DNA from: a virus
DNA: 64,000 nt
Direction: 5' to 3' (one strand)
Virus record (IMG/VR): IMGVR_UViG_3300028920_000022
Span: 310,001 to 374,000 of that record
Positions 25,473 to 44,900 of the stretch are shown here, in pieces. Within the stretch, counting starts at the first letter, position 1. Each line of letters opens with the position of its first letter. The position numbers were made by a program, and so were the translations under genes. The notes beneath the pieces were generated by a model that saw nothing but the letters and a program-made list of their open reading frames with translations, did no database searches and was not told the origin of the DNA.

Positions 25473-26088
25473 ATTACAGTTTGTTCAACCAATTTTAGAT
25501 ATTTCTCCATCGATTGCTATCGTTGGATCAAGTGGGAATCTGTGTAATCATAAATATGGAAAAATTATTGATCAGTTTCAGGATGTTATTAGATTTAATC
25601 GTGCTCCAACAAAAAATTATGAAGAAATAGTTGGACATAAAACTACTCTTCGTGTAGCTAATAATCATGTTTTTATTAATCTTGCTCCATCACTAAAAGG
25701 ATTTACTGATCAGCCGCCAGATTTTATTAGGAATCTTCGTAATAGTAGAATTTTGTACATGGGTCCGAGTATGGAACAAGAAAATAAAGAAAAGCATACC
25801 CATGCAAGTAATGAGTTGTTTGTGTTTAAATTTGAAAGTTTGGGAGATTTAAAACGCGCTGTTGGATTTGTTTCGCCTCGTCCTCCCAGCGTAGGGTGTA
25901 TAATGATTTGTTTATGTGTGATAGCGAACATAAAACCATATTTATTTGGATTCGATTTAAATGTAAATGATTCATCTAGAACGCATTATTGGGAAGATAG
26001 ACCAAGCTTAAGCCCATGTCATAAAATAGATTATGAGAAGAGGTTTTTAAACAAATTAGCAAAAGCGGGGAAAATAAAAATTAAATGA
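25465..26088 (+). CDS. GT29 sialyltransferase-like glycosyltransferase
   Basis: The 207-residue protein shows sialyl motifs of CAZy family GT29 in order. The L-motif-like part is IAIVGSSGNLCN at residues 17-28, then DVIRFNRAPT and VGHKTTLRVANN. The S-motif-like part is PPSVGCIMICLC plus LFGFDLN. The VS-like segment is HYWED...HKIDYEKRF. GT29 enzymes use CMP-sialic acid or CMP-Kdo-type donors. They are best known from eukaryotes, with scattered bacterial and viral relatives. It is shorter than animal enzymes and has no membrane anchor. The downstream KdsA-like and CMP-sugar synthetase genes could supply its donor. Confidence 0.75.
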   Translation: MSRLQFVQPILDISPSIAIVGSSGNLCNHKYGKIIDQFQDVIRFNRAPTKNYEEIVGHKTTLRVANNHVFINLAPSLKGFTDQPPDFIRNLRNSRILYMGPSMEQENKEKHTHASNELFVFKFESLGDLKRAVGFVSPRPPSVGCIMICLCVIANIKPYLFGFDLNVNDSSRTHYWEDRPSLSPCHKIDYEKRFLNKLAKAGKIKIK

Positions 26089-27047: not shown

Positions 27048-27063
27048 TATTTTGCTGTTTAGA

Positions 27064-28023: not shown

Positions 28024-28789
28024 AGTGTGGATTTTGGGTCCCTGTAGTTTAGAGGGTAGAGATTTATTTATAAACACATTATCAGCAATTGAACCAATTA
28101 TGCGTGGAAAACAATGGTATATGAAAGCTAGTTTTGATAAGGCAAACAGAACATCTCTGTATGGCGGTAGAGGTCCGGGATTAGAAGAGTCACAAAAAGT
28201 TTGGAAAGAAGCCCACGAACTTTTTCCACACGTTAAATTTATAACTGACGTTCATGAAGTACATCAGGTAGAAAAGCTGGTAGGATATGTAGATGTTGTA
28301 CAAACGCCAGCCTTTTTGTGCCGACAAACAGATCTTATCGTTGAATGTGCGAAGCATTTTCAAGCCATCAATATTAAAAAGGGACAATGGATAGGACCTA
28401 ACAATCTTATCAAATCTGTGGATAAAGTAAAAGAAACAAACCCAAATTGCGAAGCATGGATTTGTGATCGCGGATCTAATTTTGGATATCATGATTTGTT
28501 CGTTAATTTTGGAATTGTTGACGAATTAAAAGAATATTATGATAAGATTATTTTGGACTGTACGCATTCTACCCAACGGTCAAGAAAAGTACATGGAAAA
28601 CAGGGTGATAGAGTTTTGGCAGAACGATATTTTGTGTCTGCTGATGTTTTTAATTATGATGGCGTTTTTGCAGAAGTTCATCCAAACCCGCCTGAATCTG
28701 TTTCTGACGCTGATTGTGTTTTAGATTTGTTTAGATTAAAAATGTTAGTGCAAAAAGCAGATGCCGTTGGGAAGGTGGTTTGTGAATAA
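28013..28789 (+). CDS. kdsA: 3-deoxy-D-manno-octulosonate 8-phosphate synthase-like (KdsA)
   Basis: The 258-residue protein matches KdsA in length and motif order: LGPCSLEG, KASFDKANRTS, GGRGPGLEES, ITDVHEVHQVE, VDVVQTPAFLCRQTDL, INIKKGQWIGP and DCTHSTQ. KdsA condenses arabinose 5-phosphate with phosphoenolpyruvate to Kdo-8-phosphate, precursor of CMP-Kdo. PEP-binding lysine and metal-ligand histidine positions appear kept. It overlaps the aldolase by 11 bp and the CMP-synthetase by 8 bp. A phage-borne KdsA suggests boosting or redirecting Kdo-type sugar into the phage glycan. A related long-chain sugar acid as product is possible. Confidence 0.88.
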   Translation: MKNKVWILGPCSLEGRDLFINTLSAIEPIMRGKQWYMKASFDKANRTSLYGGRGPGLEESQKVWKEAHELFPHVKFITDVHEVHQVEKLVGYVDVVQTPAFLCRQTDLIVECAKHFQAINIKKGQWIGPNNLIKSVDKVKETNPNCEAWICDRGSNFGYHDLFVNFGIVDELKEYYDKIILDCTHSTQRSRKVHGKQGDRVLAERYFVSADVFNYDGVFAEVHPNPPESVSDADCVLDLFRLKMLVQKADAVGKVVCE

Positions 28790-29450
28790 ATTAGCTGTAA
28801 TCCCGGCAAGAGCAGGTTCAACTCGTCTAAAAAATAAAAATATATATCCATTAGGAGGTAAACCTTTAATAAGATGGGTTACTGAAGCAGTCGTTAATTC
28901 TGGGTGTTTTGATAAAATATTGGTTTCTACTGATGGAGATAAAATATTCGATGCCGTAAAGGATTTACCGGTAGAAAGGCATGTTAGACCGGCTAGTTTA
29001 GCAACTACAAAATCTACAGTTTTAAACGCTATGTTGGATTTAATTGAACATAGTAATGTAGAATATGATGTTTTTTCATATTTTTTGCCAACCTGTCCAT
29101 TTATTAATTGCCAAGATATACAAAATGGTATCAGACGAATAGATAAGTCTGATTTTGTAATAAGTATGACCGAGTTTTCTGAAACAATTCAGTTAGCGTG
29201 TTTAATTAATAATAGCAACGTTATTCCAGTTTTTGATAATTTAGAAATTGGCGCAACAAATAGCAAGTTTATTAAAAAGTACTACAAACCTTCAGGTGCA
29301 TTTTATATTGGTAAATGGGATAAAATTTTAGAATATAAAAATTTTTTTAGTGGAAATGTTCAGGCTGTTATTGTCCCAAAAGAACGCTCAATTGACATAA
29401 ATAACCACTATGATCTTTTATATGCCGAGAGTGTGTTAAAATTACGTTAA
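28782..29450 (+). CDS. CMP-sugar (nonulosonate/Kdo-type) cytidylyltransferase
   Basis: The GTG start at 28782 is preferred: it overlaps the kdsA stop, has AAGG upstream, and gives the canonical N-terminus NKLAVIPARAGSTRL. The 222-residue protein contains IPARAGSTRLKNKN...LGGKPLI (CTP-binding loop), ILVSTDGDKI and SYFLPTCPF (NeuA-type). It activates a sugar acid with CTP. Sequence style is nearer to NeuA/PseF than to KdsB, yet the neighbour is KdsA, so the substrate may be Kdo-like. It likely feeds the GT29-like transferase. Confidence 0.82.
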   Translation: MNKLAVIPARAGSTRLKNKNIYPLGGKPLIRWVTEAVVNSGCFDKILVSTDGDKIFDAVKDLPVERHVRPASLATTKSTVLNAMLDLIEHSNVEYDVFSYFLPTCPFINCQDIQNGIRRIDKSDFVISMTEFSETIQLACLINNSNVIPVFDNLEIGATNSKFIKKYYKPSGAFYIGKWDKILEYKNFFSGNVQAVIVPKERSIDINNHYDLLYAESVLKLR

Positions 29451-29461
29451 ATTTATCAGTG

Positions 29462-30541
29462 ATGATTCCCGTTTATAAACCCTATCTTCCCAAACATATA
29501 TTACGATATGCGCATGATGCCTTAGGTTCCGGCTGGCTGTCTAGAGGTAAGTATAATGCACTAGCCTCTGAAAAACTTCAAGAAATTTTGAGAGTAAAAC
29601 ATGTGCTGCTGACTAGTAACGGAACTACTGCCGGGCACCTTGTCGCAATAGCTTTAAAAGATTGCTTTGGTTATAATGAAATAATTATGCCGAATAACGT
29701 TTACGTCGCTGCGTGGAATGTTTACAAATACGAAAATATCAAAATTAATATCGTGGACGCAAATATAAAAACTTGGAATTTCGATTATAAATTGTTAGAT
29801 AAAGCAATACGGAAAAATACAGATTGTGCAGTTGGTGTTGTCCATAATCTAGGGAATATCGTAAATGTCCCAAACTTAAAACAACAATATCCGAATACCA
29901 TGTTTGTTGAAGATGCATGTGAAGGGTTTTTAGGAGAGTATTCCGGAAAACCAGTTGGAAGTGAATCGCTTTCTTTTGTTTCTTTTTTTGGTAATAAAAA
30001 TATCACCTCCGGCGAAGGCGGGGCGGTTTTAATTAATGATACGGATATATACGAATATTTGAATTGTAAACATGGTCAGGGACAACATTTTGATGATGAG
30101 CGTTTTGTGCATAGAATGTTGGGTTATAATTATCGTATGACCAATGTGCAAGCTGCTTTATTGTGTGGACAGTTGGAATGTTTGGACCAAATTAAAGAAA
30201 ACAAGAAAAGAGTTTTTGATACCTACTATAAACATCTTGGCTCTGAATTTGTTTTGCAGGAAACCGATCCTAATACCGTTTCTGCTAATTGGATGTTAGG
30301 TATAAGAGTTTCCGGTTCAAACTATAAAAATGCAGAAAGTCTATTTTCGAGTCGTGGTATAGAAATAAGACCAATGTTCTGTGATGTTGGTTTGCATGGA
30401 CATTTTGGCGGAATTTCTACTTTCAATAATGCCTATCTTTTGCGCCGGGAATGTATTGTGCTGCCAAGTTATCCAGAGTTAACCGAAGACGAAATAAAAT
30501 ATATTGTTAAAACTCTAAAAGAATATAAAGAGAACCTATGA
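29462..30541 (+). CDS. DegT/DnrJ/EryC1-family PLP aminotransferase
   Basis: The 359-residue protein begins MIPVYKPYLP. It has TSNGTTAGHL (PLP phosphate loop), FVEDACEGF (Asp for the pyridine nitrogen), SFFGNKNITSGEGG with the PLP lysine, and MLGYNYRMTNVQAAL. These enzymes aminate keto sugars attached to nucleotides. The GNK-x-I-x-x-GEGG context and a 4-bp overlap with gmd suggest GDP-perosamine synthase, which acts on the Gmd product. Amination of a Kdo-like sugar (KdnA type) is the alternative. Confidence 0.82.
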   Translation: MIPVYKPYLPKHILRYAHDALGSGWLSRGKYNALASEKLQEILRVKHVLLTSNGTTAGHLVAIALKDCFGYNEIIMPNNVYVAAWNVYKYENIKINIVDANIKTWNFDYKLLDKAIRKNTDCAVGVVHNLGNIVNVPNLKQQYPNTMFVEDACEGFLGEYSGKPVGSESLSFVSFFGNKNITSGEGGAVLINDTDIYEYLNCKHGQGQHFDDERFVHRMLGYNYRMTNVQAALLCGQLECLDQIKENKKRVFDTYYKHLGSEFVLQETDPNTVSANWMLGIRVSGSNYKNAESLFSSRGIEIRPMFCDVGLHGHFGGISTFNNAYLLRRECIVLPSYPELTEDEIKYIVKTLKEYKENL

Positions 30542-31515
30542 AAGCATGTTTGACTGGGATTACGGGACAGACCGGGTCTTATTTGGCAGAATTGTTGCTA
30601 GAAAAAGGCTACGATGTCTATGGACTGGTACGTAGAACTAGCTCTTTTAGTACAGGACGTATAGATCATATCTATGATAAATTGCACCTTACTTATGGTG
30701 ACTTGGCGGATTATTCCTCCATCTCTTCTTGGGTGGGAGATATAAAACCGGATTTGCTATTTAACATGGCGGCTCAAAGCCATGTTAAAGTCAGCTTCGA
30801 TATTCCGGAATATACAGCCGATGTAACTGGTACTAGCGTAATTAGAGTTTTGGAAGCTATTAGAAAAAATAGCCCCAAAACAAGGTTTCTTACGGCCAGC
30901 ACGTCAGAGTTGTTCGGTAGTAGCCCTCCGCCTCAAAATGAACAAACTCCCTTTCACCCTCGCTCCCCATACGCCGTAGCTAAATTGGCGGGATTTTGGG
31001 CAACTATAAATTATAGGGAAGCATATAATCTTTTCGCTACTAATGCTATTATGTTTAATACCGAGTCGGTGAGACGTGGAGAAACTTTTGTAACCAGAAA
31101 AATTACCAGAGCAGCTACTCGTATCAAACTTGGTCTGCAAGATAAACTGGTTCTAGGTAATATCTCTGCTAAACGAGATTGGAATCATAACAAAGATACC
31201 GTCAGAGGTATGCTCATGGCTATTACCGCCAACGAACCAGATGATTATGTGATTGCTTCCGGCGAAATGCACTCTGTTCAGGAATTCGTAGAGTTGGTAT
31301 TCTCTAAGCTAGATTTAGATTGGGAGAAATACGTGGAAATAGATGAACGCTATTATCGCCCATCTGAAGTTGATGCTCTTTGTGGTGATTCTACCAAGAT
31401 TCGTAATAAATTGGGTTGGGAACCAGAATTTTCTTTTAATGATCTAGTAGAGGAAATGGTCCAGCACGATCTCGCCCTGGCTGGTAAAGAAAAGCTTTTG
31501 AAGGAAGCGGTATGA
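30538..31515 (+). CDS. gmd: GDP-mannose 4,6-dehydratase
   Basis: The 325-residue short-chain dehydrogenase-type enzyme has NAD(P)-binding GITGQTGSYLAELLL, LVRRTSSF, the catalytic STSELFG, YAVAKLAG (Y-x3-K), and the diagnostic Gmd segment ESVRRGETFVTRKITRA. It converts GDP-mannose to GDP-4-keto-6-deoxymannose, the branch point for fucose, perosamine and rhamnose sugars. It lies between the aminotransferase and GDP-fucose synthase, both of which can use this product. Confidence 0.92.
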   Translation: MKACLTGITGQTGSYLAELLLEKGYDVYGLVRRTSSFSTGRIDHIYDKLHLTYGDLADYSSISSWVGDIKPDLLFNMAAQSHVKVSFDIPEYTADVTGTSVIRVLEAIRKNSPKTRFLTASTSELFGSSPPPQNEQTPFHPRSPYAVAKLAGFWATINYREAYNLFATNAIMFNTESVRRGETFVTRKITRAATRIKLGLQDKLVLGNISAKRDWNHNKDTVRGMLMAITANEPDDYVIASGEMHSVQEFVELVFSKLDLDWEKYVEIDERYYRPSEVDALCGDSTKIRNKLGWEPEFSFNDLVEEMVQHDLALAGKEKLLKEAV

Positions 31516-32477
31516 AAATTCTAGTCACAGGTAGTTCCGGGTTTCTAGGACATCATGTTCTGGAAGAATTTTATAACAAATCTAAAGAAACCATTATTTC
31601 TCCAGGAAGTATAAATTGCGATCTAACAAACCCTAATGATGTAGATAATTATTTTAAAAATACTAGGTGTGATTGTATTCTACATTTGGCTGCTGTTTGT
31701 GGCGGAATCTTGGCGAATCGCAATAGCCCTGCAGATTTTTTAGTTAAGAATTTGCAAATGGGAATAAATATATTCGAAGCTGCAAGAAAAAATGATATTA
31801 AATACGTGTATACTCTGGGTAGCGTGTGTGGTTATCCAAAGTATTGCCAAGTTCCTTTTAAGGAGGATAACCTGTGGAATGGTTATCCTGAAGGGACTAA
31901 TGCCCCGTATGGGCACGCAAAACGTACCCTTCTAATGCTTCAAAACACTTACCGAAAACAATACGGTATTAAAGGAACACACCTAATACCGGTGAACCTG
32001 TTTGGAACCCAAGACCATTTTGATCTAATCAATAGCCACGTAATTCCTGCATTAATTCGCAAGTTTCTTACTGCTGTAGATGAACCTGCTCCATCAGTAG
32101 AATTATGGGGTAGCGGGGAAGTCAGTAGGGAGTTTCTGTATGCTCCCGATTGTGCGGAAGCAATAGTTAAAACCGTTCTTATGAAGCTAGATTATCCAGA
32201 GCCCATTAATCTAGGGACAGGACGTGATATATCTATAAGGGAATTGGCAGAAACCATTGCCAAACTATGTGGATATAAAGGAGATATTGTCTTCAATACC
32301 AATATGCCAGATGGGCAACCTAAACGCAGATTAGATGTATCTAGGGCAAAAGAAGTTCTGGGTTGGGAAGCTAAAACTTCTCTGCTGGAAGGGTTAACCC
32401 ATACAATCACGTGGTACGAAGATAATAGGCACTTGACAGAGGATTCAAATGACAAGAACAACCAAAAAAGCTCGTAA
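31512..32477 (+). CDS. fcl: GDP-L-fucose synthase
   Basis: The 321-residue NADPH-dependent 3,5-epimerase/4-reductase has VTGSSGFLGHH, the catalytic Cys region LGSVCGYPK, GTNAPYGHAKR (Y-x3-K) and NLFGTQDHFD. NSHVIPALIRKF carries the catalytic His. It turns the Gmd product into GDP-L-fucose (or colitose-like sugars). It overlaps gmd by 4 bp. The C-terminus (LTEDSNDKNNQKSS) overlaps the start of the Lys-rich protein by 29 bp. Confidence 0.9.
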   Translation: MKILVTGSSGFLGHHVLEEFYNKSKETIISPGSINCDLTNPNDVDNYFKNTRCDCILHLAAVCGGILANRNSPADFLVKNLQMGINIFEAARKNDIKYVYTLGSVCGYPKYCQVPFKEDNLWNGYPEGTNAPYGHAKRTLLMLQNTYRKQYGIKGTHLIPVNLFGTQDHFDLINSHVIPALIRKFLTAVDEPAPSVELWGSGEVSREFLYAPDCAEAIVKTVLMKLDYPEPINLGTGRDISIRELAETIAKLCGYKGDIVFNTNMPDGQPKRRLDVSRAKEVLGWEAKTSLLEGLTHTITWYEDNRHLTEDSNDKNNQKSS

Positions 32478-33033
32478 GACCACCAAGAAAACTAGCAAGA
32501 AAACTAGCAAGAAAACTAGCAAGAAAACTAGTAAGAAAACTGTAAAGAAAGCAAATGGCACCAAGGTAAGACGTGTTACTCCTGACAACACTATTAATGT
32601 TTCAGAAATAGCCTCTACATTGGGATATGATGAGTTGGCAAAACAGCTAACTGTCGAAAAACCAAAACCTGTAGTTACCGATGTTACCAGGAATGGCAAG
32701 AACGTTTATAAGCGGTATGACAATGCAAAGGTAGAGGAATCTTCGGATGAGTTTTTGCGTAAGTTTTCTGACATGAGTGAGACAGAGTTTGCTGCTTGGA
32801 TTTTGGGTAGAGAAGCTGCTGAAAAGATCGTTCAGGCTGAGGAAACCTTAGCCAAGCTGACCAAAGAATATTGGCAGGCAAAACGTAGGCTTATTTGTGC
32901 CACTCAGGCGCTTAATGCAGCTTATGCTAAACTAGAGGAAAAAGGCACTTTAGTCACTTCTAGTGAATTGTCCAAGAGCGAAGCCCGAACTGTTGTAGCG
33001 AAAGCATTAGAGGAAGAACTCTGGAATAGGTAA
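32449..33033 (+). CDS. Lys-rich N-tail protein of unknown function
   Basis: The 194-residue protein begins with a histone-H1-like basic tail (KKARKTTKK followed by repeats of KKTS) over residues about 5-35. The rest is helical and acidic, with a coiled-coil-like stretch in the middle (AEETLAKLTKEYWQAKRRL). The tail is encoded by a 12-bp tandem repeat. Basic tails of this kind bind nucleic acid or polyanions; the function is unknown. It separates the fcl and dehydratase genes, overlapping both. Confidence 0.62.
   Translation: MTRTTKKARKTTKKTSKKTSKKTSKKTSKKTVKKANGTKVRRVTPDNTINVSEIASTLGYDELAKQLTVEKPKPVVTDVTRNGKNVYKRYDNAKVEESSDEFLRKFSDMSETEFAAWILGREAAEKIVQAEETLAKLTKEYWQAKRRLICATQALNAAYAKLEEKGTLVTSSELSKSEARTVVAKALEEELWNR
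32485..32544 (+). repeat. 12-bp tandem repeat encoding KKTS
   Basis: The unit AAGAAAACTAGC occurs as three perfect copies, one copy with a single change (AAGAAAACTAGT) and a degenerate fifth. It lies in frame in the basic tail, so repeat number can change without breaking the gene. Confidence 0.92.
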
Positions 33034-34010
33034 TGGGTAGGACCAAAATTTTATGCACAGGTAGTGGCGGGTTTATATTTTCTAATTTTGTTCGTCAAAT
33101 ATTAAAATTTAACCCACCATCTGTAAAAGCCAAATATGAAGTTGTTGGTGTGGATAAGTGTACTTTACCTAAAGTATTGAATACTATTTATACCAACAGA
33201 GGTCATAAGTTTCATATTGGTGATGTAACAGATAGACATTTTATGAATATTATATTTGAGCTAGAACGCCCAGATATAGTAATTCACGCTGCTGCCGAAA
33301 CTTTTGTTGATAATGCAATTGAAGATGCTAACAAATTTGTTAAAACAAATGTAGAGGGAACACAAGTTATAATAGACATGTGTTTAAAATGGAATGTAAA
33401 AAGATGTGTGTACATCTCTACTGACGAAGTATATGGGCATCTGGTTAGTGAAGATTTATCGTCTTGGACGGAACATTCTATTCTTAATCCACGCAACCCA
33501 TATTCTGCCACCAAGGCAGCTGGCGAGTTGCTAATAAGAGCTGCACATGAAACTCATGGATTGCCCTATAATATTACTCGATCTTGCAACAATTATGGTC
33601 CCAGACAACCAGTTCGTAATCTAATCCCTAAAATTATTGCCAACATTCATCATGAGAGACCGGTGCCTATTTTTGGCCAAGGTATGCAGATACGTGATTG
33701 GATCCATGTTCAGGACTGTTGTGCTGCAATAATTAAAATAATAGAAGATGCTCCACTTAATGAAATATATAACATATCTGCAAAACAGGAATATACGAAT
33801 ATAGAGGTATTTCATGAGATTTGCAATATATTGGGTCGAGGGCATGATCTATTAAAGTTTGTTGAAGACAGAAGGGGACATGATTTTCGATACTCAATAA
33901 ACAACCAAAAAATGTTAGATTTAGGTTGGGAACCCAAATTCAAGTTTAAAGCTGGGTTAGAGCATACGGTCGATTGGTACATGAAAAACACTTGGTTTTT
34001 GAAGGATTAA
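33033..34010 (+). CDS. NAD-dependent 4,6-dehydratase, RmlB/RfbB-like
   Basis: The 325-residue extended SDR protein has a Rossmann loop CTGSGGFIFSNFV, YISTDEVYGH (Thr-Asp-Glu active-site triad of dTDP-glucose 4,6-dehydratases), NPYSATKAAGE (Y-x3-K) and RSCNNYGPRQ. The third glycine of the usual G-x2-G-x2-G loop is Phe16 here, which is unusual and may change cofactor affinity. It likely makes a 4-keto-6-deoxy nucleotide sugar. No RmlC/RmlD partners are seen in the window. TAATG overlap with the preceding gene. Confidence 0.82.
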   Translation: MGRTKILCTGSGGFIFSNFVRQILKFNPPSVKAKYEVVGVDKCTLPKVLNTIYTNRGHKFHIGDVTDRHFMNIIFELERPDIVIHAAAETFVDNAIEDANKFVKTNVEGTQVIIDMCLKWNVKRCVYISTDEVYGHLVSEDLSSWTEHSILNPRNPYSATKAAGELLIRAAHETHGLPYNITRSCNNYGPRQPVRNLIPKIIANIHHERPVPIFGQGMQIRDWIHVQDCCAAIIKIIEDAPLNEIYNISAKQEYTNIEVFHEICNILGRGHDLLKFVEDRRGHDFRYSINNQKMLDLGWEPKFKFKAGLEHTVDWYMKNTWFLKD

Positions 34011-34013
34011 ACT

Positions 34014-34289
34014 GTGGGCAAGAAAGTATTTAAAAATGTGGAAGAGTTTTTGGAATCCGTATTGGCTTATCCACGCCGAGTAAAATTAAACGAAACTTCA
34101 AAATATGTTTCTTTTAAGGCAGATGACGGAGTTGTGTTTTCTATTAGCAAATCAGATTATGATAAAGGTATAAAAAAGGCAAATATTCCATATAGGGTTG
34201 GTGTTTTTGCTCAAGCTATGACCAGCAAAGCGGGGCAAGAGAAGTATTGTGAATCGTTGAACTATGGAAAGCCAGATTTTGAGGAATAA
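34014..34289 (+). CDS. Small conserved-looking protein of unknown function
   Basis: The 91-residue protein starts at GTG with a clear Shine-Dalgarno (AAGGA, 7-bp spacing). It is a mixed alpha/beta protein with KKVFKNVEEFLESVLAY and a SKAGQEKYCESLNYGK tail. No domain is recognised. It stands at the boundary between the glycan island and the FtsZ-like/replication block. Confidence 0.6.
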   Translation: MGKKVFKNVEEFLESVLAYPRRVKLNETSKYVSFKADDGVVFSISKSDYDKGIKKANIPYRVGVFAQAMTSKAGQEKYCESLNYGKPDFEE

Positions 34290-34291
34290 AT

Positions 34292-34651
34292 ATGGATAAT
34301 TTAATTGATAAGATTGTACCATATTTACAAGCCAGGCTGTCAGATTCTGATGGGCAAGTTTTTGATATAGAAGATTTAAAGAAATTTATAAGAATATCTA
34401 TAAGTATTAATGCGCCATATCCTGATAATGATTTAGATAATTACTTTAAAATTCATTTGGAAAGCATAGTTAGTTATGCTGCTGTTAAAGCTTTGGCTGC
34501 ACATGCGTTGAAAGAAAAGGGTTGCGAGTTTAGAGATGTCACTGACACCACATTGCCACCTAAATTGAGTGAGTTTTTGTTACAGGCGTCTCAACAAGAG
34601 TTTGATAGTTGGATGCGTATAAAAGAATTAGAGGAAAGAAATGGGAGTTAA
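34292..34651 (+). CDS. Unknown helical protein upstream of the FtsZ-like gene
   Basis: The 119-residue mostly helical and acidic protein has a VSYAAVKALAAHALKEKG helix in the middle and a C-terminal QQEFDSWMRIKELEE helix. It overlaps the start of the FtsZ-like gene by 11 bp, so the two are probably co-translated. No family recognised. Confidence 0.6.
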   Translation: MDNLIDKIVPYLQARLSDSDGQVFDIEDLKKFIRISISINAPYPDNDLDNYFKIHLESIVSYAAVKALAAHALKEKGCEFRDVTDTTLPPKLSEFLLQASQQEFDSWMRIKELEERNGS

Positions 34652-36011
34652 AACAGAAGTAGTATCTGAAAAACCAGAAGAAATTGAAGATGACATTTCG
34701 CAAGAACCAGTTTCCGCCTCAAACGAAGATGAGGGTGTGAATCAGGACAAATTAGCAGAACTGAAAGCCAAAATGGCTTCAAAAAAACAAGGAGACAAAG
34801 TGCCACCACGTATAGTAGAAAAAAAGAAAAAGAGTCTTAATTTGGGCATTATAGGAAGCGGACAAGGAGGTTCGCGCGTTGCTTCTGCCTTCTATTCGCT
34901 AGGTTATAACGCTATTGTTTTTAACACTGCGCCTCAAGATTTAGAAGCAATTGATATTCCTGAAGATAAAAAATATCTTTTGGAGTATGGCATCGGTGGT
35001 GCCGCTAAAGATATACAAATTGGACATGATGCCGCAGAAGCTCACCGAGATGGTATAAACGCTTTAATCCAAGAGGAGTTGGCTGACGCCCAGGTTTTTG
35101 TGCTGTGTTTTAGTTTGGGTGGGGGCTCGGGCGCAGGATCGTTTGAGACAATAGTTGAGATTTTGGCAGAAACTGGACGACCTATTGTGGTTATTACGGT
35201 TCTTCCCATGAGCACAGATGATGCTTTAACTAAAAACAATTCATTACAAACACTATCTAAACTAAGCCAAATAGCACAAAATAAGGGAATTAATAATATC
35301 ATTGTTGTTGATAATGCTAAGCTGGAAACAATTTATAGTGATGTTGGTCATATGGATTTCTTTAAAGTAGGAAATCAGGCTATTGTTGAACCAATTGATG
35401 CTTTTAACCATCTTTCGTCTTTGGCGTCTCATGATAAGAGTATGGACCCAATGGAGTGGGCAAAGGTGCTTACTGATGGCGAAGGGTTTTGTGTGTATGG
35501 CGAAATGACTGTAGAAAACTATGAAGAAGAAACTGCCATTGCTGAGGCTGTATTGAACAACTTAGACAAGGGACTTTTGGCTAGTGGTTTTGATCTTGAG
35601 CAAACCAAATATGCTGGCGCGTTGGTCGTAGCCAATGAAAACGTGTGGAAGAAGATCCACCATGGTAGCGTAAATTATGCTATGAGTTTAATTAAAGAAA
35701 CCTGCAGCAGTGCTGAAGGTGTTTATCGTGGAACCTATGAAGTAGATATGGACCGAGATGTGGTCAAGGTTTATTCTATCTTCTCAGGTCTGGGACTTCC
35801 TGATAGCCGTGTACAACAGCTTAAAAAGGAAGCCGAAGCTGAAATTGCTAAAGCAAAACAACAAGCTAAAACCCGTAATACTAAGTTAACTCTGGATACT
35901 GGGACAGATAAGGTTGTTTCAAAGGCAGATGAAGTACGTGCGAAAATTGCCAAACGTAGCTCCTCGTTTGGTAAGAACTTTGCCAGTGGCAAAGATTTTC
36001 GTAAAAAGTAA
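34641..36011 (+). CDS. FtsZ/tubulin-like GTPase
   Basis: The 456-residue protein has an acidic N-terminal tail (about 65 residues), then the GTPase domain: GIIGSGQGGSRVASAF (T1-like), FNTAPQDL (T3-like), and the tubulin/FtsZ signature GGGSGAGS at residues 160-167 (T4). VDNAKL follows in the T6 region. The expected T7 catalytic loop reads M-D269-P-M-E272-W, with Asp...Glu in place of the usual Asp...Asp. The C-terminal part is helical and basic (KAKQQAKTRN, then FGKNFASGKDFRKK). Phage relatives (PhuZ, TubZ) form filaments that position or segregate DNA. This one is divergent, so filament formation is inferred. A strong AGAGGA lies before the ATG. Confidence 0.8.
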   Translation: MGVKTEVVSEKPEEIEDDISQEPVSASNEDEGVNQDKLAELKAKMASKKQGDKVPPRIVEKKKKSLNLGIIGSGQGGSRVASAFYSLGYNAIVFNTAPQDLEAIDIPEDKKYLLEYGIGGAAKDIQIGHDAAEAHRDGINALIQEELADAQVFVLCFSLGGGSGAGSFETIVEILAETGRPIVVITVLPMSTDDALTKNNSLQTLSKLSQIAQNKGINNIIVVDNAKLETIYSDVGHMDFFKVGNQAIVEPIDAFNHLSSLASHDKSMDPMEWAKVLTDGEGFCVYGEMTVENYEEETAIAEAVLNNLDKGLLASGFDLEQTKYAGALVVANENVWKKIHHGSVNYAMSLIKETCSSAEGVYRGTYEVDMDRDVVKVYSIFSGLGLPDSRVQQLKKEAEAEIAKAKQQAKTRNTKLTLDTGTDKVVSKADEVRAKIAKRSSSFGKNFASGKDFRKK

Positions 36012-37522
36012 TGCCAAAACTGATAATTGATAACAATAAACGGTGCCACCTTGATGACGAAAATGATGTTGATTTTCTCAGGGAGCTAGATACAGAATTA
36101 TCGTTTAATGTTCAAGGGGCACAATATACTGCGGCTTTCAAACATGGGTGGATGGATCCGTTCGAGGGGAAGTTTGTCCGCTGGGATGGAACGCAAAGAT
36201 TCCTGGAAGAAACGAATCTAAGTTTTCCTATTGGTTTGCGCCGCAGAGTAGAAGAGTTTTATGCTGGAAAAGCCAGGGATTTGGAAATATCAGATCTCCG
36301 TCCTCAGAAAACTATAAGCGATTGGGATCAATATCAGTATCCTGATGTTATTGCCCGGTTGCAAGAATGGGGGAAAATTCCGTACCCTCACCAGTTGGAA
36401 ACATTAAACGTTGTTAAACAACATGATCATGGTATTATTCGTATTGGTACCGGAGGGGGTAAAACCATCTGCGCAGCACTAATTGTCGCTAATCGTTGTA
36501 AAAAGTCTATCATTTATGTGGTAGGAAAAGACTTATTATATCAGATTTATAAACTGTTTTGTGCACTGTTTGATCAAGATAAAACAGAAATTGGTATTGT
36601 TGGCGATGGACAATGCAAAATAGGTGATATAAACATTGTCAGCGTTTGGACAGCAGGTTGCGCTTTGGGTATGAAGAAGGGCAATGTCTTGTTTGAATCT
36701 GATGGAGACGAAGCTCCGGTAGAGCCAGCAAAATATGTTGCTATCCGTCAAATGATGAAGGATGCCAAGCTCCATCTTCTGGATGAGTGTCATGTTGCTG
36801 CTTGCCAAACTATTCAGGAGTTGTCCAGACATATAAACCCTGAGTTTCTTTATGGTATGTCTGCTTCCCCTTGGCGAGATGATGGGGCAGATCTTATGAT
36901 AGAAAGCATTCTCGGAAATAGAATTATAGATATTTCCGCCAGCACGCTAATTAAACAAGGTCTTCTTGTTAAACCAATTATTAAATTCAAAAGAGTGCCG
37001 GGAACAAAAGTGGGAACAAATTACCAATCTATTTATAAAAACTATATAGTAGAAAACGATATAAGAAATAAAATGGTAACAGATTCCGCAGAAAACTTGG
37101 TCAAGAAGGGATATAAAACATTAGTTCTGTACAATAGTTTAAAACATGGAAAAATATTGGAAAAGCAAATTTCCCAACGAATACCTTGTAAGCTTTTGAG
37201 CGGGAAGGACCCTACTAGTGTAAGGGAATATGCCAGAGAGGATTTATTAAATAACAAGATAAATTGTATTATAGCATCAAGAATCTTTGATCTTGGGGTA
37301 GATATTCCTGAGTTGTCGGGATTAATTGTTGCCGGAAGTGGAAAAAGCTCAGTAAGAGCGTTGCAAAGGATCGGTCGAGTCATTCGTAGCAACCCAGGAA
37401 AGAAGGTAGCAGCCGTTATAGATTTTGTGGATGATGCCAAATATTTAAAGGATCATGCTCAATCTAGGAAACGAATCTATAGCAGCGAAGAAGAATTTGA
37501 TATTCGATGGCCAACCAAATGA
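36011..37522 (+). CDS. SF2 DNA helicase, UvsW-like
   Basis: The 503-residue DEAD/DEAH-type helicase has YPHQLETLNVV (Q-motif area), Walker A GTGGGKT at 146-152, DECH at 258-261, MSASPWR (motif III), FDLGVDIPEL (motif V) and ALQRIGRVIRSN (motif VI, from 450). The layout resembles T4 UvsW and related phage ATPases that act on branched DNA during recombination-dependent replication. It starts inside the preceding stop (TAATG) and overlaps the next gene by 16 bp. Confidence 0.87.
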   Translation: MPKLIIDNNKRCHLDDENDVDFLRELDTELSFNVQGAQYTAAFKHGWMDPFEGKFVRWDGTQRFLEETNLSFPIGLRRRVEEFYAGKARDLEISDLRPQKTISDWDQYQYPDVIARLQEWGKIPYPHQLETLNVVKQHDHGIIRIGTGGGKTICAALIVANRCKKSIIYVVGKDLLYQIYKLFCALFDQDKTEIGIVGDGQCKIGDINIVSVWTAGCALGMKKGNVLFESDGDEAPVEPAKYVAIRQMMKDAKLHLLDECHVAACQTIQELSRHINPEFLYGMSASPWRDDGADLMIESILGNRIIDISASTLIKQGLLVKPIIKFKRVPGTKVGTNYQSIYKNYIVENDIRNKMVTDSAENLVKKGYKTLVLYNSLKHGKILEKQISQRIPCKLLSGKDPTSVREYAREDLLNNKINCIIASRIFDLGVDIPELSGLIVAGSGKSSVRALQRIGRVIRSNPGKKVAAVIDFVDDAKYLKDHAQSRKRIYSSEEEFDIRWPTK

Positions 37523-38094
37523 CTATACCAACTGATGGGCTTTCTAAACATTGGCAAAAATTCTTTAAGCGGTTTGATGAAATTGATACCCTTAAAGTAT
37601 CACAATGGAAAGAAGTTCATTTTCTAGCTTATATTTGTAAACGTTTTAAAGATACGTTTGGTAGAAACTTTTCTGTCACTATTCAAAATTGCCCATCAAA
37701 ATCTCCAGATATTTATGCAATAAAAAGAATTATTGCTATGTTGGGAACCACCAACATGCGCACAGTAAAAGAATATATTGATTGGGTTTATGATAAAAAG
37801 ATAGTGCCAAAAAGAACACGTATAAGAAAAGTTGGATATTTTCTTACATCCGGGTTTGGTAATGAGTTTTATTTTGATAGGAAACAGGCGCCTAAAATAA
37901 AAAGATCAACTGAACTTCCCGATGATTATAAACGTGTTGCTACCACCTTGGGTGTCTCAGCTTCTACTTATGGCGATTTGGCGTTTATTAAAATGGCAGC
38001 CGATCAATCCCAATCGAGCCCATATAACGTGTTGTTTGCTAATTTGGAGGCAATGGGGTTCGATCTTGATATATTAAAGGAGATTGCAGAATGA
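37507..38094 (+). CDS. Unknown protein of the replication block
   Basis: The 195-residue basic helical protein has WQKFFKRFDEI at the start and TRIRKVGYFLTSG in the middle. Charged and aromatic composition and neighbours (helicase, DnaC/DnaB pair) suggest a DNA-associated role, but no motif is recognisable. It overlaps the helicase by 16 bp and the next gene by 4 bp. Confidence 0.6.
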   Translation: MANQMTIPTDGLSKHWQKFFKRFDEIDTLKVSQWKEVHFLAYICKRFKDTFGRNFSVTIQNCPSKSPDIYAIKRIIAMLGTTNMRTVKEYIDWVYDKKIVPKRTRIRKVGYFLTSGFGNEFYFDRKQAPKIKRSTELPDDYKRVATTLGVSASTYGDLAFIKMAADQSQSSPYNVLFANLEAMGFDLDILKEIAE

Positions 38095-38585
38095 GTATTG
38101 ATATTCCACAAAAAGATGATCAAATATTTATTAAATTGGTTGGAGCAGCTAGCGGTGATTATTGTTCGGTTATAGATTGGGGAGCAGACGGTTGGAATCA
38201 GAAATGGGCAATTTTAAATGTAAATGGCACAAAGTGTCAAATAAATATATCTCAAATAGCCCATTTTAACATTATTAAACGTGGTGATTCTAAACAATAT
38301 ACAATTAATAAATCTGCTAAACATGATAATCCCGCTTTAGCTAGAGCAACAAAACAGGCAATAGCTACAGTTACTAAAATGGAAAAGAGAGTCGAGCCCG
38401 ATCCAGATCCTACACCAGAATTACAAGGAGTGACTGATCCGACTCTGCGTGCCTTGAAATTGGTGGATTTGCGTAAAACACAGCAGAAAATTAAGGCAGA
38501 GCAAATTAGGGATCATATGACCGATTCGGAATTAAAACCTGTGAAACATCATTATGAAATGCCCAGCTTTAAGAAACGTACCTGA
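38091..38585 (+). CDS. Unknown protein upstream of the helicase loader
   Basis: The 164-residue protein has an N-terminal beta-rich half (FIKLVGAASGDYCSVIDWG, then WAILNVNG) that might form a small barrel. A proline/acid linker (EPDPDPTPE) and a helical, basic C-terminus follow. No family is recognised. Its end overlaps the DnaC-like gene by 32 bp. Confidence 0.58.
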   Translation: MSIDIPQKDDQIFIKLVGAASGDYCSVIDWGADGWNQKWAILNVNGTKCQINISQIAHFNIIKRGDSKQYTINKSAKHDNPALARATKQAIATVTKMEKRVEPDPDPTPELQGVTDPTLRALKLVDLRKTQQKIKAEQIRDHMTDSELKPVKHHYEMPSFKKRT

Positions 38586-39249
38586 AAATAAATTAACATT
38601 TGCTTTAAAACAAATAGATGAGAATTATGACGACGATTCCGTAATGGTTCGTCGTAAAGCCTGTCATAGATATTTCGATGCCAATATTCCCGTTAGATAT
38701 TGGAATCTGGAAATGCATCGGGATTTTGAGGGCGATAATGGTATCCTGTCTTATTATAAAAACCTGATAACGGACATCCCGAAATTATATAACGAGGGAT
38801 TAGCTATTATTTTAGCTGGGGGCTTTGGACGTGGCAAAACGATGGTTGCCACCAACTTGCTTAAACGCGCCTTAGAAAAAGGATATACCGGTCTGTACGT
38901 CGGTCTCAATGATGTTATTTCTGCAATTACATCTAATGAGAAATTTACAGCCAGACGGGAATTATTAGAAGCACATTTTCTAGTAATAGACGAATTTGAT
39001 TCCCGGCACATGGCGCAAAGCGGAAATGCTCAAGATTTCTTCGGAAGAATTATAGAAGATATCCTAAGAATACGTTTAAATAACCAAATGCCGATCATTT
39101 TGTGTACTAACAATATTGATGTAGTTTCCGCATTTAGGGACAGTTTGCAGGAGAGTTTAGCCAGTTTGATGAACTATATGGATATTGTGCCGGTTTTGGG
39201 TTCAGATTATCGTCCAATAGAGAAACAGAAAAGGCTTAGTGGAGAGTAA
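38554..39249 (+). CDS. DnaC/IstB-like AAA+ ATPase, probable helicase loader
   Basis: The 231-residue protein has Walker A GGFGRGKT at residues 89-96, Walker B FLVIDEFD with D146-E147, and sensor-1-like PIILCTNNI. It lies directly upstream of a DnaB-like helicase, the usual order for loader and helicase. It should place the hexamer on single-stranded phage DNA. The N-terminal part (KACHRYFDANIPVRYW) resembles the linker seen before the AAA+ core in phage loaders. Confidence 0.85.
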   Translation: MKCPALRNVPENKLTFALKQIDENYDDDSVMVRRKACHRYFDANIPVRYWNLEMHRDFEGDNGILSYYKNLITDIPKLYNEGLAIILAGGFGRGKTMVATNLLKRALEKGYTGLYVGLNDVISAITSNEKFTARRELLEAHFLVIDEFDSRHMAQSGNAQDFFGRIIEDILRIRLNNQMPIILCTNNIDVVSAFRDSLQESLASLMNYMDIVPVLGSDYRPIEKQKRLSGE

Positions 39250-39251
39250 TT

Positions 39252-40697
39252 ATGGATTGGGACTTATTAAGAGCCATTTCTCAACATCAAAAATTAGCAT
39301 TAGATTTTTCTCTCCAATATGATGAGAGGATGTTTCTTGACAATAATGCCCAGCTTTTAGGTAGAGCATTTATTGATTATGTAAGAACATTCAAGAATCG
39401 TCCCACCAAACGTTCCATGTCTGAAGTCTATTCTTCAGATACCCAAATGTTGGGATTGATCGAAAATTTCTACAACAAACATAATACTCCCTATGATGAG
39501 GCAGATTATAGTTTTGATTTAGCTAGACTCAAACAACGATTTGGGGAAACCAAAATCAAAGAGGTCAAGGAATATCTCAATGCTGGCTCTTCTACAGATC
39601 TCACCAGTGCTATAAAGCATATTCAGAAACAGATTAACGAGGTTAAATCTGTTAGTTCTTCTAATCAAATATTTGCTCGTCAGACTCTAAAAGATCATAT
39701 TCCCGACTTTAAGAGAGATTATGTAGCCAAGACAAAAGATAAGGATCTTGGTAGGGGGATATTAACTGGTTACTCTTTTCTTGATTATATAAATAATGGG
39801 TTTAGACCGTCAGATTTGGTGATTATTGCAGCCGAGACTGGTGCGGGGAAGTCTATGTTTATGAGCAATATGGCGATCCAAACTTGGATGCAGAAGAATC
39901 AAATTACCACTCCAACGGATCAATTGCAAAAAGGATATAACGTTACTTACTTCAGTTTGGAAATGCCATATAGGGATTGTTTTCGTAGAGTTTTAGCTAG
40001 GCTCGCTGATGTTCCAAATTATGGTATTCGAGACGCAACTCTAACCCAAGCCGAGGCAGAATCGGTAATAACTGCGTTTGATTTTATCCAACGTTACCCT
40101 CATGAGTTTGACATTGTAGATGTACCCAGAGGGTTTTCAGTAGAGCAGTTGGAGCTGAAATTCGAGGAAATAAAAGCTGATTATACTCCAGATATTATAT
40201 TTATTGATTATATGGGTTTAATGGAGGATATGGATGAAGATTCGGAAGACTGGTTGGCATTGGGCAAATTAGCGGGGAAAATACATGAATTTGCCCGTGT
40301 ATATGGAATACCGGTAGTAACAGCTGTACAATTGAATCGATTGGCTCCCAGCAAAAATCAAACCGAGGTTCAGACAATAGGATTGCATAGAATAGGGCGC
40401 TCTTCTTTAATGGCACAGCATGCGACAGTGGTTATTCAGATTGAATCCCGTCCAGATGAGGATACCCACGATGATTTCATTTATCATATAATTAAGAATC
40501 GTGATGGGGAATCACGCAAGAAACATACCATTTGGAAGAATTTTAGTCATTCTTCGATTACGGATAAACCATATAATTCTAAAGATAATGAGAATTGGTC
40601 AGAGGAGGATGACATTTCAGTGGATATGTCAGGAATATTAGGACTTTTTGCGGATGAAAACACCAAAACAGACAGTAGCCAAAGCGATCAGGGTTGA
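39252..40697 (+). CDS. DnaB-like replicative DNA helicase
   Basis: The 481-residue RecA-type hexameric helicase has an N-terminal helical domain. After a linker come the motor motifs: ETGAGKS (Walker A, 195-201), YFSLEM, the Walker B DIIFIDYMG, and VVTAVQLNR (motif H3). HATVVIQIESR and an acidic C-terminal tail (SEEDDISVD) complete it. Length is normal for DnaB. It unwinds duplex at the phage fork and would be loaded by the upstream AAA+ protein. The C-terminus overlaps the next small gene by 44 bp. Confidence 0.9.
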   Translation: MDWDLLRAISQHQKLALDFSLQYDERMFLDNNAQLLGRAFIDYVRTFKNRPTKRSMSEVYSSDTQMLGLIENFYNKHNTPYDEADYSFDLARLKQRFGETKIKEVKEYLNAGSSTDLTSAIKHIQKQINEVKSVSSSNQIFARQTLKDHIPDFKRDYVAKTKDKDLGRGILTGYSFLDYINNGFRPSDLVIIAAETGAGKSMFMSNMAIQTWMQKNQITTPTDQLQKGYNVTYFSLEMPYRDCFRRVLARLADVPNYGIRDATLTQAEAESVITAFDFIQRYPHEFDIVDVPRGFSVEQLELKFEEIKADYTPDIIFIDYMGLMEDMDEDSEDWLALGKLAGKIHEFARVYGIPVVTAVQLNRLAPSKNQTEVQTIGLHRIGRSSLMAQHATVVIQIESRPDEDTHDDFIYHIIKNRDGESRKKHTIWKNFSHSSITDKPYNSKDNENWSEEDDISVDMSGILGLFADENTKTDSSQSDQG

Positions 40698-40833
40698 GCA
40701 CGATCCAGACTCTGATGACTTATTTTTGGTTTTTGAGATTGTAGATGATGATTTCAAACGAAGAATCAAGCGAGATTGGACCGATGATATAGAATTAAAG
40801 TTGATAGGTAAAAATCTCGTATTGGAGGAATAA
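40654..40833 (+). CDS. Small unknown protein
   Basis: The ATG at 40654 is preferred to a TTG two codons upstream. The 59-residue protein has charged beta-strand-like segments (DDLFLVFEIVDDDF, DIELKLIG). It is nested in the end of the dnaB-like gene and its stop overlaps the next start (TAATG), a typical small phage gene. No function is recognised. Confidence 0.6.
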   Translation: MKTPKQTVAKAIRVEHDPDSDDLFLVFEIVDDDFKRRIKRDWTDDIELKLIGKNLVLEE

Positions 40834-41150
40834 TGCCATTTTATGATCATGAATGTGATTTTTGCGGGTATATTTGGGAGGATTTTTATTCCATGGTTGA
40901 TGATCCGCCCACAACCTGTCCCAGCTGTAACACTACCGGAAAAGTAAAAAGGCTTATTTCCAACAATATAGCCGTGAGGGTAGCTTTACATGGTCAGGAA
41001 TTAAAAGACAAAATTAATGAAGACAGAAAGAAAATGTCCAGAGAAGTAGCTAAAGATGAGAATCTGAGGGCTAATATTATGGGTGAGGATAAATATCATC
41101 AAGATCAGATTCGAAGCAAAGAATTGGATGATAATCTTAAACAATTATGA
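40833..41150 (+). CDS. FmdB-type zinc-ribbon protein
   Basis: The 105-residue protein has an N-terminal ribbon PFYDHECDFCGY...TCPSCNTTG with two CxxC pairs, as in the FmdB/zinc_ribbon_8 family, followed by a charged helical tail. Members are putative regulatory proteins of unknown mechanism and occur in many phages. It lies between the helicase and sigma-like genes. Confidence 0.8.
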   Translation: MPFYDHECDFCGYIWEDFYSMVDDPPTTCPSCNTTGKVKRLISNNIAVRVALHGQELKDKINEDRKKMSREVAKDENLRANIMGEDKYHQDQIRSKELDDNLKQL

Positions 41151-41278
41151 AAAGTCGTTTAATCGCAATATTAAAAATATTACTTGATATAGATGATATA
41201 GAAATTATCAAATGTGTTATCGAGTCTTTGATTGAAGAGCTTGGTGACAACGATAGTTCCATTGACAAAGGAGATTAA
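41147..41278 (+). CDS. 43-residue protein between zinc ribbon and sigma factor
   Basis: A short frame begins at an ATG overlapping the zinc-ribbon stop (ATGA) and ends with a TAA overlapping the sigma-like start (TAATG). It therefore exactly fills the gap. The product is a short amphipathic, acidic helix (MKSRLIAILKILLDIDDIEI at the start). The double coupling supports a real gene. No function is recognised. Confidence 0.6.
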   Translation: MKSRLIAILKILLDIDDIEIIKCVIESLIEELGDNDSSIDKGD

Positions 41279-41937
41279 TGAGTTCACCAGATCCGGCTGA
41301 AATTAATAAAATTGCTAATGAGTTTTTGAGATTAAAGAAATTAGTTGCTAAATACCCGAATGATATTAAAAAACTTAAGAAATATAGGCGGTTCCAAGAT
41401 TATTGTATGAGAAAGATGGCATATCTAGTTAATGTTCGTGTTGGTAAATATAAGCAATTTTCTAATTATAATGATTTAAAGCAAGATGGTTTTGAAGCTT
41501 TATTGATGGCATTTGAGACCTATGATACAAAGAAGGGCAATTTTTGTTGGTGGGCAGATCGTTACATAAACACCAGGATTTATAGATCAGCGAATGCTCA
41601 TTCTACTATTCGTTTTCCATTACGTAGAGCCAAAGAAACGCCCCCTCACAAAACCAACTCTATGCCAATATTGGTTGACCAAGAAAAAAACCCCAGCCAA
41701 CAAGTCGAGGAATCCCAGAATTTAGACTTTATTATGGACATTATCAATGAACTTCCTGAAGCACAAAAACAGGTTATTTTAATGCGTCACGAGTTCGATG
41801 GTGGAAAGAATTGTTCTGTAACTAAAATGTCTTCTTGTCTTAAAATATCTAGGAACACATGTAAACAATTACTAGAAGAAGCTGAACAGTTTTTGAAAGA
41901 TAAACTAACCCCTTACTACAGTGAAGTTCGAGGATAG
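41278..41937 (+). CDS. Sigma-70-family RNA polymerase sigma factor
   Basis: The 219-residue protein has a region-2 core (YNDLKQDGFEALLMAFETYD followed by KKGNFCWWADRYI), matching the D-L-x-Q-E-G...F-D...FxxWA pattern. The C-terminal region 4 helix-turn-helix is ELPEAQKQVILMRHEF and KMSSCLKISRNTCKQLLEEA. It should redirect host RNA polymerase to phage promoters, probably late ones. Genes downstream of the 48.1-kb terminator are candidates. A very short region 3 is typical of small alternative factors. Confidence 0.85.
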   Translation: MSSPDPAEINKIANEFLRLKKLVAKYPNDIKKLKKYRRFQDYCMRKMAYLVNVRVGKYKQFSNYNDLKQDGFEALLMAFETYDTKKGNFCWWADRYINTRIYRSANAHSTIRFPLRRAKETPPHKTNSMPILVDQEKNPSQQVEESQNLDFIMDIINELPEAQKQVILMRHEFDGGKNCSVTKMSSCLKISRNTCKQLLEEAEQFLKDKLTPYYSEVRG

Positions 41938-44900
41938 ATGTTTAAACAAGATATTTGTTATGAGATCTGGGGCGGGGAAAGCGGTAAGTATAGACTACGT
42001 GATAGTGATGGTACAGCCATTGATCAAAGTCCTGAAGATACTTGTGCCAGGGTAGCGAGGGCTTTGGCTGATGTAGAACCAGCAGATCAAGAAAAATGGT
42101 ATAAGGAGTTTGTTAGAGTTTTAGGAACACGGTTTGCTGGCGGTGGAAGGATTATGGCCAATGCCGGGGCTGGCAAATATAAGAAAGAGACCTCATGTAT
42201 AAACTGCGTTGTCATGCGTCAGCTGCCAGATTCGATGCTTGGGATAATGTCAGTTGCAACCGAAGCCGCTCTTACATTAAAAGCCGGCTGTGGTGTTGGT
42301 TATGATTTTTCTTCTATTCGACCTAAAGGTGCACATGTATTTGGGGCTGGTGCTGCCACTTCTGGAGTAATGTCCTTTATTGAAATATTTAATTCAGTAT
42401 GTCAAACTGTTATGTCTGGAGGGGGACGTAGAGGCGCACAGATGGGTTGCCTTGACGCCCAACATCCAGATATAGAAGAATTTATTTTGTCCAAACGAAA
42501 AGATGGTGCCTTTCGTTATTTCAATTTTTCCGTTTTGATTACTGATGCGTTTATGCATGCTGTAGAAAATGGTGATGATTGGGACCTATGGTTTTGGAAT
42601 AAATCAAACAAAACCAAAGATGAAGTTGATGTTAAAATAATTGAAAAGAACGATATACCATATAATCACCCGGAATCTCAGTATTTTAGTTTTGCTGAAG
42701 ATCATGTGGAGTGTGTATATAGTAAGAGAACTCCAGATGTTGTTTTTGAGAAGAAGGTTTTTAGGACATTAAAAGCCAATGAATTATTTGAACTAATTAC
42801 TAAATCTACTTATAATTTTAGTGATCCTGGTTTCATATTAATTGATAAGATGAACCGGGAAAATAACTTATATTTCTTGGAAACCATTAGATCAACAAAT
42901 CCATGTGTAACTGGAGATACATTAATATCAACCAATGAAGGGCTGGTTCCGGCAAAAAACTTGGTAGGAAAAAAGATTACTGTTCCTGTTGATTTTAGAA
43001 TGGAACGTGGGGTTAATGCTGAAACATCTTATTGGAAGAAGACTAGAGAAGATGCTCAAATTTTGAAATTACAGACAAAAGAGGGTTATTCTATTAAAGC
43101 TACTCCAGATCATCGCATTATGACCAATGATGGTTGGAAGGAATTGCAAAACTTAAGTCCTGGCGATAAAGTTCATATATACCAAGGCAATGGTGCTTTT
43201 GGTAGCAAGGGATCGTTTGGGGAAGGTGCGGTTTTTGGTTGGTTAGTTGGAGATGGGACTATTACGGGTCAAAAAGCTGTATTATCTTTTTGGGGAGAAG
43301 AAGAACATATATTGGCAAAATCGATGGCGAAGTATGCCAGCAAAATGGTTGCTAATGAGACTAGTGCTAAAGCCAACCGATCTTATGATGAGCTGTGTGC
43401 ATATTCAGTAGAAGAGCGCAATGAAAGTCGTGTAGCTTCTGTAAGGCTGCGAAGGATTGTGGAACGTGAAGGTTTGGTTGAAAACAAACTTCAGGTACCA
43501 CCATCTGTTTGGGCTGGCACAGAAGCAATGCAAAGAGGATTTTTGAGTGGGTTGTTTAGCGCAGATGGGACTGTGGGAAATAAAAACAGCGTTTCTGTTC
43601 GTTTATCATCCACATCTCCTGATTTATTGTCACAGGTTCAAGTTTTACTACAAGGTTTTGGTATTGCTAGTAAAATATATTTAAATAGAAATCCCGCAGG
43701 ATATAGATCTTTGCCCGATGGGCATGGAGGACATAAAGAATATTTGTGCAAAGCGGGTCATGAGTTGATAATTTCCAAGTATAATCTTGTTAATTTTATG
43801 AACCGAATTGGTTTTTTGTTGCCTTATAAACAAAAAGCCCTGCTAAACAACATAGATAGTTTGAATGTGTTGGGTCCTCGTCCTGAGCATTTTACAGCTA
43901 CAGTAGAAAGTGTGACTAAAGATGGAATTGAGGATGTATATGATTGTTCAGTACCTGGAGTAAATGCATTTATAGCGAATGGTTTAGTTATTCATAATTG
44001 TAGCGAACAGCCACTATCCCCCTTATCCAACTGTCTTTTAGGTTCCATGATGTTGCCGGTATATGTAAGGAACCCATTTACCTCTGATGCTTATTTTGAT
44101 TGGGAAGGGTTTGCCAAAGATGTCCGTGTGGCTTCTCGTATGTTGGATAATGTTATTGAGATTAACAATCTACCTCTACCAGAATTAGAGGAAAACCTAC
44201 GATATCAGCGCCGTCATGGTTTGGGTTTTACCGGATTAGGCTCAGTACTAAATATGTTGGGTATTAAGTACAATTCCTCAACTGGTGTTGCTTTTGGCGA
44301 AAAGATTTCTAAAACCATGGCACAACAAAGCCTGTTAGAATCTATTCATTTAGCTAGAGAAAAGGGTCCTGCACCATTTTCTGAACTAATAGAAAACCGG
44401 GCTAGGTTTTTAAATTCCGAGTATAATAAACGTTTATTGGAAACTTTTCAAGAAACACAAGCTATTATTGAACAGGTTATGGAATATGGTGTACGCTGGA
44501 GCCACGCTACATCTTTAGCTCCAACCGGCACAATGTCTCTTACTTGGGGTAACAATTGTTCTAACGGTTTAGAGCCGGTATTTATGAATTCGTATTTGCG
44601 AAACATAAGAATGCCAGGGAAAAAGACCAAAACTCAGATGGAAGTTTTCGATTATGCCTATTATGAATGGAGACAATTATTCGGAGACGATCCGCTACCT
44701 AATACCTGGGTAACAACGGATGATTTAACCATTGAAGACCATTTAAATATGCAGGCAGCAATTCAGAAATATGTTGATTCTGCCACCTCTAAAACAATAA
44801 ATGTACCCACCGAATGTTCATATGAAGATTTTAAAAATGTATATATTGAAGGATGGAAACGAGGATTAAAGGGAGTAACGACTTATCGTTTTAATCCAAA

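Follow-up and report, generated by a model that had tools for sequence, protein, structure and literature searches.

A TubZ-like tubulin with a conserved basic C-terminal peptide in the replication block of huge phages

The locus and the domain layout of the tubulin

The window analysed here is a stretch of 64,000 nucleotides taken from a virus record of 458,729 bp, in which it occupies positions 310001-374000. The source of the record is a huge tailed phage (at least 459 kb), assigned to the tailed phages because the record encodes a terminase large subunit (TerL) at 229971-231005. At 34641-36011 of the window, on the forward strand like its parts, the frame that overlaps its start and the genes of the replication block, lies an open reading frame for a TubZ-like phage tubulin of 456 aa (P0001), which is the sole match to the tubulin family in the whole record. 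The frame starts with ATG; its first 11 bases overlap the gene before it, and it shares a single base with the downstream helicase gene.

The protein begins with an N-terminal extension (residues 1-66, 34641-34838), in which an acidic patch (D17-D18) is followed by a predicted helix at residues 35-50 (KLAELKAKMASKK) and then by PPRIVEKKKKSL. The GTPase domain (residues 67-240, 34839-35360) was delimited by alignments and is modelled with pLDDT values mostly above 90. It contains the motifs GSGQGGSR, NTAPQD, GIGGAAKD, GGGSGAG (residues 160-166, 35118-35138) and VDNAKLE, which, by the usual loop naming of this fold, would be T1, T2, T3, T4 and T6, respectively. Further downstream are the T7 loop, D269-P-M-E272 (35445-35456), a C-terminal helix H11 as in TubZ (residues 388-416, 35802-35888), located from the predicted secondary structure and the best structural matches, which are TubZ, and a conserved basic C-terminal peptide that ends in D-x-R-K (residues 428-456, 35922-36008).

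A tubulin of the TubZ type

A preliminary description of this DNA, based on the letters and their translations, had proposed a divergent FtsZ/tubulin-like protein with a GGGSGAGS signature. Both the signature, present as the GGGSGAG of T4, and the assignment hold, with Pfam, PDB and Foldseek matches far above chance. The Pfam models Tubulin (1.1e-14, 55.7 bits against a curated cut-off of 33) and TubZ-like_C (PF22453; 7.3e-11, 42.7 bits against a cut-off of 26) are both matched, and the best sequence match among solved structures is RepX/TubZ, with an E-value of 1.5e-18 that improves to 1.7e-39 when the family profile is used. An AlphaFold2 model was built from 34 related sequences (pLDDT 81.7, pTM 0.74). 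When compared with the PDB by Foldseek, this model has the tubulin-type fold and retrieves TubZ chains first (E 1.9e-25, TM-score by target 0.73-0.79, 20-24% identity), with CetZ and FtsZ ranking behind. Both hallmarks of the superfamily, the GTPase fold with the glycine-rich T4 signature and the acidic T7 residue, are present, as are the TubZ-type C-terminal domain and H11. The protein is nearer to TubZ than to FtsZ, and it is almost certainly a TubZ-like tubulin.

The T7 loop is of an ordinary type

In the preliminary description the T7 segment was read as altered, and D269 and E272 do lie in the T7 position when the protein is aligned with TubZ, phage G gp138, PhuZ and E. coli FtsZ. The window tubulin has SMDPME in the columns where E. 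coli FtsZ has NVDFAD, so that the FtsZ-type NxDxxD is absent; the strict NxDxxD is, however, a feature of FtsZ. The first Asp does not vary among 65 distinct relatives from phages, neither in the long-tailed clade to which the window tubulin belongs (50/50) nor in the short-tailed sister groups (15/15). At the second acidic position, 47 of the 50 long-tailed proteins carry Glu and three carry Asp, whereas all 15 short-tailed relatives have Asp. Glu at this position is also found in plasmid TubZs (Planococcus, FDSSEF; Paenibacillus peoriae, FDLDEW) and in RepX/TubZ (FDASEF), and the catalytic T7 residue of alpha-tubulin is likewise a glutamate, E254 (PMC13394414). Since Glu is this common in the clade and its relatives, we rejected the reading of the loop as a mark of a dead enzyme or of a new catalytic mechanism. 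Asp-x-x-Glu is an ordinary variant, which predicts a working GTPase rather than a dead one.

Conserved terminal tails

Long tails, acidic at the N-terminus and basic at the C-terminus, had also been noted, and their lengths and the basic C-terminus are borne out; the N-terminal tail (~65 aa) is acidic in its first half only and carries a net charge of -2 over 65 aa. Its conserved features are the Asp-Asp patch, the predicted helix (KLxxLKAK; pLDDT about 60 in the model) and an I-V-x-K-K-x-R-S segment, with D17 conserved in 86%, K37 in 80%, L38 in 90%, L41 in 98%, K42 in 94%, I58 in 88% and S65 in 98% of the sequences of clade A.

The C-terminal tail comprises 64 aa with an overall charge of +10. 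Its last 29 residues (428-456) form a basic peptide that is about as conserved as the GTPase domain (mean column conservation of 0.70 versus 0.74, 50 distinct members). The pattern of the tail is KxSxFGK...D-x-R-K, and across the same 50 sequences S441 is conserved in 98%, F443 in 96%, K445 in 92%, and both D452 and R454 in 100%. Every one of the 50 window-clade members ends in D-x-R-[KRN] and has a net charge between +5 and +11 over the last 25 residues. As the C-terminal tail of TubZ is a published partner-binding site (PMC5322520), the basic and highly conserved tail of the window tubulin is a putative partner-binding site of the TubZ type.

Relatives and phylogeny

Queries with the whole protein and with the DnaB-like helicase returned no relatives, while a fragment covering the GTPase domain, followed by an alignment query, recovered 44 loci in IMG/VR. 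These fall into two groups. The first is close to the window tubulin (38-62% identity) and belongs to large and huge phages; the second is distant (22-28% identity, mostly 383 aa) and includes L014. Huge phages contribute about 50 distinct proteins to the window family, with records of up to 481 kb. Among named phages (tblastn against 50,697 phage records), gp138 of Bacillus phage G is the sole relative. A search of predicted viral structures added one protein, A0A6J5RW92 of an uncultured Caudovirales phage, which is plainly a member of the window-tubulin family (56% identity in the structural alignment); its name, FtsZ Cell division GTPase, was given automatically and we found no study of it. 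In addition, a Polyangiaceae MAG contig (L059:2122-4050) carries a tubulin-like open reading frame of 642 aa with 27% identity over the core.

In the maximum likelihood tree, plasmid TubZ and phage G group together (UFBoot 90), apart from the window clade (80), and the distant group forms a clade with L014 (100). The deeper nodes are weak (64-75), which makes the exact rooting of the window clade provisional. The TubZ proteins of Bacillus plasmids (TubZ-Bt, 2xka; RepX/TubZ, 4ei7) have the fold, H11, the TubZ-like_C domain and the basic C-terminal tail in common with the window tubulin, and RepX also the D-x-x-E of T7. They differ in sequence (20-24% identity); the window tubulin has a long N-terminal extension and no adjacent tubR was found. 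Phage G gp138, annotated as 'FtsZ-like', is also encoded by a huge phage and is 25% identical over half of the protein, but it groups with plasmid TubZ and is preceded by a small gene, gp137. The latter (L002:7689-9116) gives weak winged-helix matches and lies directly before gp138, as a possible TubR-TubZ pair. The marine phage tubulins (L036, L044-L058) and L014 share the core at 22-28% identity, and no TubR neighbour was seen beside them either; they differ by their length of about 383 aa, the lack of a basic tail, the D-x-x-D of T7 and a gene position among terminase and capsid genes.

Phage tubulins are known as two subgroups (PMC3678025, PMC7950403), and a comparative survey of jumbo phages has noted two kinds of FtsZ/tubulin (PMC7824862). 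In the open-access literature we found no description of a replication-linked tubulin clade with a tail peptide, and the family is apparently uncharacterised.

Genomic context

The gene had been placed at the start of a replication block, which agrees with the annotation of its surroundings. The order found in the window clade is epimerase, tubulin, UvsW-like helicase, a 195-aa protein of no assigned function, DnaC-like loader and DnaB-like helicase. In the window, these neighbours are an NAD-dependent epimerase (33033-34010, Pfam Epimerase, 5.4e-55), which is the upstream neighbour in nearly all relatives, the UvsW-like helicase (36011-37522, Pfam ResIII/Helicase_C; PHROG 16, 8e-66), whose downstream position is conserved, the 195-aa all-helical protein (37507-38094, pLDDT 87.2), the helicase loader (38554-39249, PHROG 50, 2.5e-19) and the replicative helicase (39252-40697, Pfam DnaB_C, 2.3e-33). 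An independent search with the 195-aa protein retrieved 53 loci, 51 of them with the upstream side visible, and the tubulin was present in 48 of the 51; these counts refer to loci, some of which are overlapping or duplicate contigs. The remaining three replication blocks have no tubulin gene, two of them probably belonging to one phage. In L116 the epimerase gene directly abuts the helicase gene, and the tubulin was found neither elsewhere in this 88-kb record nor in the records L113 and L114. Although these records are fragments, the three blocks indicate that the tubulin gene is not strictly required. The synteny speaks for co-inheritance and perhaps co-expression, not for a physical link between the products.

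Loci of the distant marine group have another arrangement, with TerL and a gene of 626-684 aa without assigned function on one side of the tubulin gene and a capsid-like gene on the other. As an example, in L046:3121-13591, as in other marine loci, a tubulin gene for a protein without the basic tail is located within the packaging/capsid module.

Other genes of the window were noted in passing. A sigma-factor-like protein (41278-41937) is a conserved neighbour of the block in about 11 relatives, and the ribonucleotide reductase large subunit (41938-45081) contains an intein that carries a LAGLIDADG domain. A sugar-nucleotide run at 27001-34010 encodes a DHDPS-like aldolase, a DAHP-synthase-family protein, a cytidylyltransferase, a DegT aminotransferase, a GDP-mannose dehydratase and two epimerases. 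The product of 32449-33033 has an N-terminus of lysine/threonine-serine repeats, encoded by a 12-bp tandem repeat at 32484-32541.

Proposed function and alternative explanations

The analysis shows the fold, the clade, the intact GTPase motifs, the conservation of the tail and the synteny, and it found neither a linked TubR candidate nor a chimallin match. A TubZ-like GTPase of this kind may polymerise head to tail, in which case the T7 loop (D269, E272) of one subunit would complete the GTPase site of the next. We infer that dynamic, GTP-driven filaments would form during infection. The basic C-terminal peptide, connected to helix H11 by a short linker, would then be the binding site for a cargo or adaptor, like the TubZ tail for TubR, and the N-terminal extension may act as a second docking or regulatory element. 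Given the fixed place of the gene in the block of replication helicases, the cargo would probably be the phage genome undergoing replication or the complex that replicates it, which would be positioned or segregated in the host cell without a chimallin nucleus or a linked TubR. The most likely reading, to which we give an even chance, is a GTP-driven filament that positions or segregates replicating phage DNA through a putative partner bound to the tail. Capsid transport, suggested by the distant marine clade with its gene among packaging and capsid genes, is an equally possible role.

The best-known role of a phage tubulin is that of PhuZ (PMC7950403, PMC13282480), and the window tubulin could similarly form filaments in lytic growth by which the replication body is centred and capsids are brought to the phage DNA, with capsids or some other late protein bound to its basic tail. 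PhuZ (201phi2-1 gp59 and those of other nucleus-forming phages) belongs to the same superfamily and is likewise encoded by large lytic phages, and a role in capsid transport is suggested by the marine sister clade, with its gene between TerL and a capsid-like gene. However, the gene of the window clade sits among replication genes, and TerL is about 114 kb distant in the record (229971 versus 344641). The match to the PHROG PhuZ profile (PHROG 4733) is confined to some 80 positions within the GTPase domain (E 1.4e-7), whereas 201phi2-1 PhuZ is matched over its full length (1.2e-105). Chimallin gave no match in a search with one protein, nor with a profile in 14 phage records, the control 201phi2-1 being detected at 1e-220, although a divergent shell protein is possible in its place. 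The window tubulin is not a PhuZ. As the preliminary description had pointed out, the layout also departs from the short PhuZ tail, the tail being long and basic as opposed to the acidic knuckle of PhuZ (PMC3678025). We consider a PhuZ-like function unlikely.

Type III (TubZRC-like) partition of a phage genome held as a plasmid in pseudolysogeny, as has reportedly been described for the plasmid-state genome of phage c-st, would fit with TubZ as the nearest structural family, with the TubZ-like basic tail and with the lack of a tyrosine integrase match in the record. Such a system would also have a tubR directly upstream and tubC centromere repeats beside the genes. In 30 of 45 loci, no more than 96 nt separate the epimerase from the opening of the tubulin frame, which leaves no space for an upstream tubR. 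A 119-aa open reading frame that overlaps the tubulin start (34292-34651) was rejected as a TubR, being unconserved, absent from the other loci and without Pfam, PHROG or winged-helix (HTH) matches. A TubR-like nature of the 195-aa neighbour is unsupported, its all-helical model having no PDB fold match at E below 1. The small-protein family of phage G gp137 was not found in 11 records, with the positive control detected. No TubR-like neighbour was thus seen beside the window-clade tubulins, and a distant or very divergent tubR is possible. There is no centromere-like (tubC) repeat array in 32400-36100, just upstream and across the gene, or in 26000-46000, and ParA-type and ParB families have no match in the record. 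Partition of this type seems improbable.

Phages commonly block host division, and a member of the FtsZ superfamily might act as a decoy or inhibitor of host FtsZ so that the infected cell enlarges, but its identity to FtsZ is a mere 20% or so when the structures are aligned, and it keeps a full set of GTPase motifs under strong conservation next to its own conserved tail. We hold this explanation to be improbable as well.

Significance

Reviews tie phage tubulins either to PhuZ and nucleus-forming phages or to partition of the c-st type. Phage tubulins as such are already known; what is notable here is a replication-block tubulin family with its own conserved basic tail peptide. Somewhat more tentatively, it might stand for a third class by function, next to plasmid-type TubZRC partition and the nucleus spindles of PhuZ, namely a replication-block filament of huge phages that lack the nucleus, in which the basic peptide would couple directly to DNA or the replisome without TubR. 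A tubulin that almost every replication block of a group of huge phages contains, without a chimallin match, would make the question of tail and cargo testable with one defined peptide of 29 residues. It would also show that the cytoskeletal organisation of infection extends beyond the nucleus-forming phages.
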